A stretch of 64,000 nucleotides of DNA from Sediminitomix flava (GTDB lineage Bacteria > Bacteroidota > Bacteroidia > Cytophagales > Flammeovirgaceae), in NCBI RefSeq assembly GCF_003149185.1, contig NZ_QGDO01000002.1, positions 62,001 through 126,000 on the forward strand, given 5' to 3'. A program made the translations under genes and the position numbers. Each line of letters opens with the position of its first letter. The first letter of the stretch is position 1. This document shows, piece by piece, positions 12,863 to 13,375 of the stretch. Under the pieces are notes generated by a model. It was not told the origin of the DNA, searched no databases, and worked only from the letters and a program-made list of their open reading frames with translations.

Positions 12863-13375
12863 CTACTTCTCTTCTTCAGCATGATCTTCTAGCATTTGTT
12901 TATGATCTTCAATAATCATTTCATGCTCTTTTTCAGATTGTTGATGTTCTTGATTCATCCGATCATGATCCGTTTTCATCTTTTCATGTTCTGTTTTCAT
13001 AGTTTCATCATCAATCTCACCCGATGCATGCTGATCAGCTAACTTTTGATGCTTTGCAATTAACTCATCATGAGCTTTCATCACATCTTTATGCTCATTG
13101 ATTGTTTCATCATGCTGAGCCTCCATTTGAACATGTTCCTCATTCACAGGTTTTGCAACAGCTTCATGCTCTTCTTTCATAGCATCATGTTGTTTAATCA
13201 TATCTTTATGACTCTGCACCATATCAGCATGAGCTTTGATCATTTTCTGATGATAAGCCATCATCTCATTGTGTGCATTAGCCTCACTAGATTGATTTGT
13301 ACCACTACTACATGAAGCTAATATTAATGCTACAAAAAAACTTGCTAGAAAAGATAAGTTGATATATTTCTTCAT
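12863..13375 (-). CDS. Lipoprotein with heptad-spaced histidines, predicted metal-binding coiled coil
   Basis: Predicted lipoprotein of 170 residues. The lipobox LASC puts the lipidated cysteine at 22. The mature part is one long charged helix with histidine at 35, 42, 49, 56, 63, 70; then 81, 88, 95, 102, 109, 116; then 130, 137, 144, 151, 158, 165. Thus there are three blocks of six histidines, each spaced exactly seven apart, joined by gaps of 11 and 14 that keep coiled-coil phase. Position d of the heptad (three after His) is mostly Met, Leu, Ile or Val. The pattern suggests a parallel coiled coil with a stripe of His for metals such as Cu, Zn or Ni; that function is inference. No family was recognised. 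A terminator-like hairpin lies about 100 bases upstream (13471-13506). Confidence 0.75.
   Translation of the reverse strand: MKKYINLSFLASFFVALILASCSSGTNQSSEANAHNEMMAYHQKMIKAHADMVQSHKDMIKQHDAMKEEHEAVAKPVNEEHVQMEAQHDETINEHKDVMKAHDELIAKHQKLADQHASGEIDDETMKTEHEKMKTDHDRMNQEHQQSEKEHEMIIEDHKQMLEDHAEEEK

Follow-up and report, generated by a model that had tools for sequence, protein, structure and literature searches.

Metal-holding helical bundles, zinc-binding envelope proteins, and designed His3 coiled coils are already known. Among them, the Csp proteins have a core lined by many cysteines, ZrgA is a Zur-regulated periplasmic zinc binder, and SilE carries an HxxM motif. Csp1 is reported to be exported, with 13 Cu(I) ions in its structure, and PcoE and SilE are described as periplasmic proteins with multiple metal-binding sites (PMC7558416). 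Zur regulons are listed as including zinT, znuABC, and zrg genes (PMC6103462), and the exported zinc-binding protein ZepA is described as Zur-linked (PMC10957091). In de novo His3 three-stranded coiled coils of the Pecoraro type, each helix is reported to give one histidine to a Co(II)/Zn(II) layer (PMC13262294). What appears to be new here is a natural lipoprotein family with three predicted, His-lined helices, which we describe from a gene in a 64,000-nucleotide stretch of the Sediminitomix flava genome (the window). We favor, with moderate confidence, the reading that its product is a lipid-anchored, periplasm-facing, His-lined three-helix bundle that acts as an envelope zinc scavenger or buffer.

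Repeat architecture of the His lipoprotein

The gene and the parts of its product are as follows:

12863..13375, minus strand: CDS of the 18-His lipoprotein, 170 amino acids (sequence and relatives)
13313..13375, minus strand: signal peptide, residues 1-21, ending in the lipobox after LAS and before C (sequence by inspection; aligned Cys invariant in alignment A1)
13310..13312, minus strand: Cys22, presumed lipidated (invariant in alignments A1, A2, and A4)
13160..13288, minus strand: predicted helix 1, residues 30-72, His 35-70 (AlphaFold2 model)
13142..13159, minus strand: predicted loop 1, residues 73-78, with Pro76, of varying length in relatives (model and relatives' gaps)
13025..13141, minus strand: predicted helix 2, residues 79-117, His 81-116 (AlphaFold2 model)
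13010..13024, minus strand: predicted loop 2, residues 118-122, with Gly119, invariant in alignment A2 and at least 90% conserved in A4 (model and alignments)
12869..13009, minus strand: predicted helix 3, residues 123-169, His 130-165 (AlphaFold2 model)

By inspection, residues 19 to 22 form the lipobox LASC, and its cysteine, invariant in all three alignments, is the only one in the mature chain, which bears out the description of the protein as a lipoprotein in an earlier note on this DNA. All 18 histidines follow this cysteine, at positions 35, 42, 49, 56, 63, and 70; 81, 88, 95, 102, 109, and 116; and 130, 137, 144, 151, 158, and 165, that is, with five gaps of 7, one of 11, five of 7, one of 14, and five of 7. 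The note's three blocks of six histidines, each seven residues from the next, are thus exact, and they yield 15 i,i+7 pairs in the mature chain, whereas 100,000 composition shuffles averaged 2.0 pairs and never exceeded 8. The residue at +3 from histidine is Met, Leu, Ile, or Val in 14 of 18 cases, in agreement with the note's statement on heptad position d; in 9 of the 18 it is Met, so that the repeated HxxM known from SilE and PcoE is present.

The DNA repeat is not a young one: with the His codon set aside, the 21-base units match one another at 44% of their bases, Tandem Repeats Finder returned only two short overlapping arrays of 2.2 to 2.4 copies, and most relatives tried mix CAT and CAC codons for histidine. 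These three observations rule out a recent tandem-repeat expansion; because the units have diverged, the pattern must be kept by selection on the protein. The gene is present once in its own genome. An open reading frame on the plus strand over the His gene (13070-13315) is best read as an artefact, a shadow in which the repeated CAT codons give ATG on the other strand.

An unnamed family in Bacteroidota

By sequence comparison, the window protein is a member of a real family without a name that is widespread in Bacteroidota. An initial scan of genome contigs for relatives of the window protein was negative; a protein search then gave matches in 19 of 97 genomes, and a profile built from 11 members detected the family, within the order, in 53 of 390 genomes and 31 of 129 genera and also in 25 of 395 genomes of a phylum-wide draw (16 of 171 genera; E ≤ 1e-5), tallies that are upper bounds because of low-complexity matches among the hits and that come from overlapping genome sets, own genome included. 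Matches at the loci of two genomes (G065 and G046) are of low complexity or lie in 7-residue repeats, and those in two more (G506 and G498) are suspected on account of several short matches. Named relatives include Flammeovirga (of genus g3), whose family is also that of the window, Spirosoma, Algoriphagus, Winogradskyella, Cellulophaga, and Kordia, and others occur in Saprospiraceae and Sphingobacteriaceae MAGs.

Database searches agree with the note's remark that no described family has this pattern. For the window protein, Pfam gave only matches below cut-off (SHOCT, 0.028; FAZ1_C, 0.054), and the best NCBIfam match was MreC at 2.9e-5, with 23.4 bits where the cut-off is 332. Across 19 members, Pfam returned seven weak families, each in at most three members, with a best E of 0.0037. 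With matches this weak, assignment to a known family was rejected. Assuming that the libraries include all three models, ZnuA, ZinT, and ZrgA gave no match to the window protein at E ≤ 1 in Pfam or NCBIfam and are absent from the seven weak Pfam families (E ≤ 0.01) of the 19 members; nor was a SilE/PcoE family among the window protein's matches in these libraries, which may lack a SilE model. A PDB sequence search gave three coiled-coil matches at E ≤ 0.1, the best being KIF21A (0.0027). A natural family of His-lined three-helix lipoproteins was found neither in the searched family libraries nor in literature searches in which papers were judged by title and the start of the abstract.

Tandem repeats of seven residues, such as LVPKHRR, mimic the His spacing and give false matches at L016, L020, and L022 (G065) and L017 (G046); they are probably 21-base minisatellites. 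At four loci with His-poor members (L127, L128, L129, and L131), a second, more diverged member adjoins on the same strand, with conserved neighbors on both sides. Two genomes, G070 (L101 and L136) and G108 (L107 and L134), carry an 18-His member together with a 9-His paralogue; the paralogue in L134, like those in L137 and L138, lies 3' of a gene that by eye resembles enoyl-CoA hydratase.

Predicted fold

AlphaFold2, run with 19 sequences (model m444cbb29c920), predicts three helices with a mean pLDDT of 87.5 and a pTM of 0.76, and three helices are also predicted for the relative in L068 (pLDDT 86.2), which keeps 10 of the 18 histidines. In relatives, the gap between the first and second His runs is 10, 11, 12, 13, or 14, and that between the second and third is 14 in the 18-His members listed; from these gap data we read both linkers as loops. 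The note had taken the two linkers, 11 and 14 long, to preserve the phase of a coiled coil, which neither the variable first gap nor the predicted loops at 73-78 and 118-122 allow, and a single continuous coiled-coil rod through all 18 histidines is rejected on the same grounds. Of the coiled coil with a continuous His stripe that the note envisaged, the conserved heptad stripe therefore stands, and the continuous rod gives way to a predicted three-helix bundle.

Helix pairing was examined with a co-substitution test on 65 rows (the 66 of our wider alignment minus L001, which is the window again) and on 39 nonredundant rows, each pairing being ranked among 720. Joint hydrophobic replacement between helices 1 and 2, at residue sum 151, ranked 2nd in the 65 rows and 4th in the nonredundant set, and that between helices 2 and 3, at sum 246, ranked 1st in both, whereas helices 1 and 3 reached only ranks 65 and 140. 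Taking the presence of histidine as the signal gave lower ranks, from 16 to 84, the last being that of helices 1 and 2 in the nonredundant set, and the predicted loop ends favor helix 2-3 sums near 240 as opposed to the 246 from co-substitution. The co-replacement of antiparallel partners, taken with these mixed ranks, supports the bundle and its core but not the exact layer partners.

Fold comparison gave no clue to function: none of 446 Foldseek matches reached E ≤ 0.001, and the best VIA-align match, 6d03_E (Z 13.8, rmsd 4.0, 149 aligned residues), is near the range that the tool describes as frequent among helical bundles. Designed pH-switch bundles use buried His networks, and a bundle of this kind could likewise respond to pH, its buried histidines becoming protonated at acid pH so that it opens or rearranges. 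The de novo bundle 8gl3, whose title refers to pH-controlled membrane lysis, is among the VIA-align matches (rank 35, Z 10.4, rmsd 3.4, 137 aligned residues), at a level that is, by the tool's own scale, common in bundles of helices. We nevertheless think it very improbable that pH response is the main role, as it leaves unexplained the linkage to zinc genes, the Zur-like boxes, and the Asp/Glu replacements described below.

Conservation and replacement of the histidines

Among 11 close members, which share 27 to 40% identity with the window protein, histidine is invariant at 17 of the 18 positions, as are the lipobox Cys, Glu85, Gly119, and Met161. When histidine is lost in the wider alignment (66 rows, with the window counted twice), positions 63, 81, 116, and 130 change mostly to Phe, Tyr, or Leu, position 70 to Tyr, Ala, Ser, or Phe, and position 35 to Asn or Leu, while positions 49, 56, and 137 change mostly to Asp/Glu and positions 144 and 158 to a mixture in which Asp is commonest. 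Overall, distant relatives carry Phe, Tyr, Leu, or Asn at lost positions close to the ends, and often Asp/Glu at those between them. The hydrophobic replacements suggest core positions, and the acidic ones retain the type of a metal ligand. The note had named outward-facing histidines as an outcome that would speak against its proposal; the sequences suggest otherwise, since histidines lost near the bundle ends often give way to Phe, Tyr, or Leu, as in a core.

These patterns bear on two alternatives. The first is a structural spacer lipoprotein in which histidine is a core-packing habit and nothing else. An elongated bundle with a lipid anchor would suit such a role, and relatives with fewer histidines and a more aromatic or aliphatic core do exist, that of L068 keeping the predicted fold. 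Still, invariance at 17 of 18 positions at such low identity exceeds the needs of packing, and we give the spacer little credence.

The second alternative is a copper or silver sponge, in which the HxxM units would bind periplasmic Cu(I)/Ag(I), as proposed for PcoE and SilE. PcoE, 48% identical to SilE, is reported to be a possible sponge for Cu (PMC7558416). Among 25 nonredundant members that have 16 or more histidines, Met occupies the +3 position in 60% of cases in helix 1 and 75% in helix 3, and this richness could point to Cu(I)/Ag(I), but the value is only 18% in helix 2. Moreover, Asp/Glu in place of His fits the chemistry of Zn better than that of Cu(I). We therefore consider the sponge unlikely, and the zinc-holding bundle remains our preferred reading. 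Helix 2 also differs at +4, which is hydrophobic in 65 to 71% of cases compared to 30 to 39% in helices 1 and 3; its +3 position is hydrophobic in 91 to 98%, above its +4 value. A scheme with histidine at heptad position a in helices 1 and 3 and at d in helix 2 is thereby weakly supported from the sequences.

Linkage to cobW/COG0523 genes

COG0523 proteins are not all zinc-specific. The family is reported to include a zinc-linked, Zur-regulated subset (PMC2770081). Our context set comprised 56 of 60 loci: L104 and L109 were removed as duplicates of L069 and L060, and L110 and L120 were left out because they held no ORF passing the profile, though search matches were located in both. Of the 56, 7 have a cobW/COG0523 gene within five ORFs of the His gene (L056, L058, L067, where it occurs twice, L103, L106, L108, and L119), compared to about 0.2 expected from a rough calculation at 0.9 genes per kb. 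These neighbors were grouped by BLAST; PF02492 confirms L058, L103, L106, L108, and L119 through their genomes and also appears in the neighbor tally, and the call in L056 comes from BLAST grouping plus motif. In L103, MerC, cobW, a DUF5916/CBM9 protein, and the His lipoprotein follow one another on one strand, and in L067 the order is cobW, His lipoprotein, NicO, a small ORF, and cobW.

Of 20 chosen genomes, with 0 to 4 cobW copies each, 19 have both genes, and 7 of these have a cobW copy no more than 15 kb from the His gene (0.23 expected); since these genomes were hand-chosen and 5 of the 7 (G062, G273, G132, G381, and G653) were already known to be linked, leaving only G108 and G158 as new, the P value of this test is not independent. 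A Pfam tally of 110 of 123 neighboring ORFs, made after removal of very long ORFs and of close orthologues in Flammeovirga, is headed by cobW and its C-terminal domain with four each, tied with HATPase_c. By contrast, no copper-transport family is among the 25 listed of 144 Pfam families near His-rich genes, a further point against the copper/silver sponge.

Some neighboring ORFs deserve mention in their own right. Two small His/Cys-containing ORFs of like appearance, L161:1616-1861, between a box and a TonB-like gene, and L067:6128-6442, just before cobW, may belong to a small zinc-handling family; Pfam gave no match for the latter. In L108 (6654-11504), lipoprotein-like ORFs stand beside a TonB-like gene that has two boxes, in convergent orientation to the His gene, and DUF4625, found in two members of the neighbor tally, is taken to represent them. 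A guess of DUF3299 near L058 was dropped, as Pfam returned nothing for the tested one of two ORFs.

A putative Zur-like box

The palindrome TTGCAACANTGTTGCAA, with up to three mismatches, occurs in 6 of 20 regions upstream of cobW genes, 43 of which were found in all. A related form, TGCRACNNNGTYGCA, has six sites in the window's own genome, whereas the reversed control has none; one precedes a MerC-FolE-cobW-cobW operon, two precede the adjacent Fur-family gene, and two further ones lie beside ORFs that by eye resemble TonB receptors. A perfect 16-base form occurs in seven of eight other genomes, again with no match for the reversed control. The best-scoring NCBIfam models for the Fur-family gene are PerR and Zur, both far below cut-off. 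We refer to this element as a putative Zur-like box. The stretch in which a box, MerC, GTP cyclohydrolase I, and a pair of cobW/COG0523 genes are found together with the Fur-family gene and its two boxes (L172:522-4561, G000:C2:719021-723060 in the own genome) is probably a Zur island. Its Fur-family gene occupies L172:4052-4462, and its boxes are located at L172:522, 4510, and 4547.

Four of the 56 His genes have a box upstream at p < 0.005, namely, those in L100 (-96), L061 (-59), L060 (-59), and L108 (-36), where p refers to random 250-base segments of the same loci, as opposed to upstream regions; three of the four come from one family (f11/Spirosomataceae). The next best is L119, with p 0.007 at -210. 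The sites used to build the scoring matrix had not been assigned to any His gene, and four of them came from the neighborhoods of L100 and L108. Of 33 loci with 14 or more histidines, 10 show linkage to cobW or to a box, compared to none of 23 others (Fisher p 0.003, only a guide, since the cut at 14 was our own choice, L064, without a His count at a contig end, was counted among the 23, and the loci are related). That zinc linkage is confined to His-rich members also speaks against the spacer.

The window gene itself has no box within 250 bp (p 0.83), and no box stands above chance across the window. The nearest cobW on the same contig of G000 is 645 kb away, and the neighbors are a ResA/TlpA-type thioredoxin-fold protein and methionine-synthesis genes.

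Proposed function

We infer that the histidines face inward and bind metal, that the metal is zinc, that the role is capture or buffering, and on which membrane and side the protein is anchored. The zinc reading gains support from the conservation of histidine while the rest of the sequence diverges, from the three-helix models, from the cobW linkage, and from the Zur-like boxes; it is weakened by the lack of a box or a nearby cobW at the window gene, by linkage in only 10 of the 33 His-rich loci, and by the Met-rich +3 position. Of the unusual metal ladder proposed in the note, the metal role is thus the best reading, given the linkage and boxes in relatives, whereas the rod form is not.

After lipidation of Cys22, the chain would fold into an elongated three-helix bundle with helix 2 antiparallel to helices 1 and 3. 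Each helix would give six histidines, one per heptad, to the core, in alternation with Met/Leu/Ile layers, and the resulting column of His-rich layers would have room for several Zn(II). In the periplasm, the bundle could take zinc delivered by TonB-type receptors, buffer it, and hand it on to downstream carriers. In several lineages the gene would belong to the zinc-starvation (Zur/COG0523) set; in the window's lineage, expression is apparently independent of the box and may be constitutive. Control by a Zur-like box would imply expression in zinc hunger, which fits a scavenger better than a detoxifier. More tentatively, and with some doubt on our part, the bundle might be a natural zinc column, with six stacked layers of three histidines, about six Zn(II) per molecule, and ions passed along the layers.

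Among the titles listed by literature searches, none dealt with how Bacteroidota hold zinc in the envelope after its uptake through the outer membrane and before it reaches the inner one. If the zinc reading is true, this widespread unnamed family would provide an envelope zinc store or relay whose capacity is directly countable. To our knowledge, the metal-site architecture of a His-lined bundle is otherwise known only from designed proteins, and the natural series from 18 to fewer than 10 histidines could serve as a test bed for how ligand layers set metal choice. The zinc column, if true, would be the counterpart in nature of the de novo His3 coiled coils and, with His and Zn in place of Cys and Cu, would parallel the copper storage bundles; it would extend across Bacteroidota, several lineages having drawn it into the Zur regulon.

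Comparison with known systems

Like Csp1 and Csp3, the His lipoprotein is predicted to be a helical bundle, one that may hold many metal ions inside. Yet Csp is a four-helix bundle and our model has three helices, and the His lining, the single, presumably lipidated Cys, and the zinc link set the His lipoprotein apart. It shares with the Zur-regulated periplasmic zinc binders (ZinT and ZnuA/AdcA) the position of an envelope protein tied, in relatives, to zinc starvation, and differs from ZinT and ZnuA/AdcA in its regular His pattern and in that the window member lacks a box. ZepA is a PEP-CTERM protein with three conserved histidines as its main putative zinc site, and no heptad His repeat is mentioned for it (PMC10957091). 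PcoE and SilE have the HxxM spacing in common with the His lipoprotein, but not its strict heptad, three predicted helices, and lipid anchor, nor its neighbors, which, where linked, are zinc and not copper genes. The Pecoraro-type His3 coils come close to the arrangement proposed here, with three helices and His layers. These coils, however, assemble from a designed peptide in triplicate and have a single His3 layer, whereas the His lipoprotein is natural and would form, from one chain with an antiparallel helix 2, up to six such layers.
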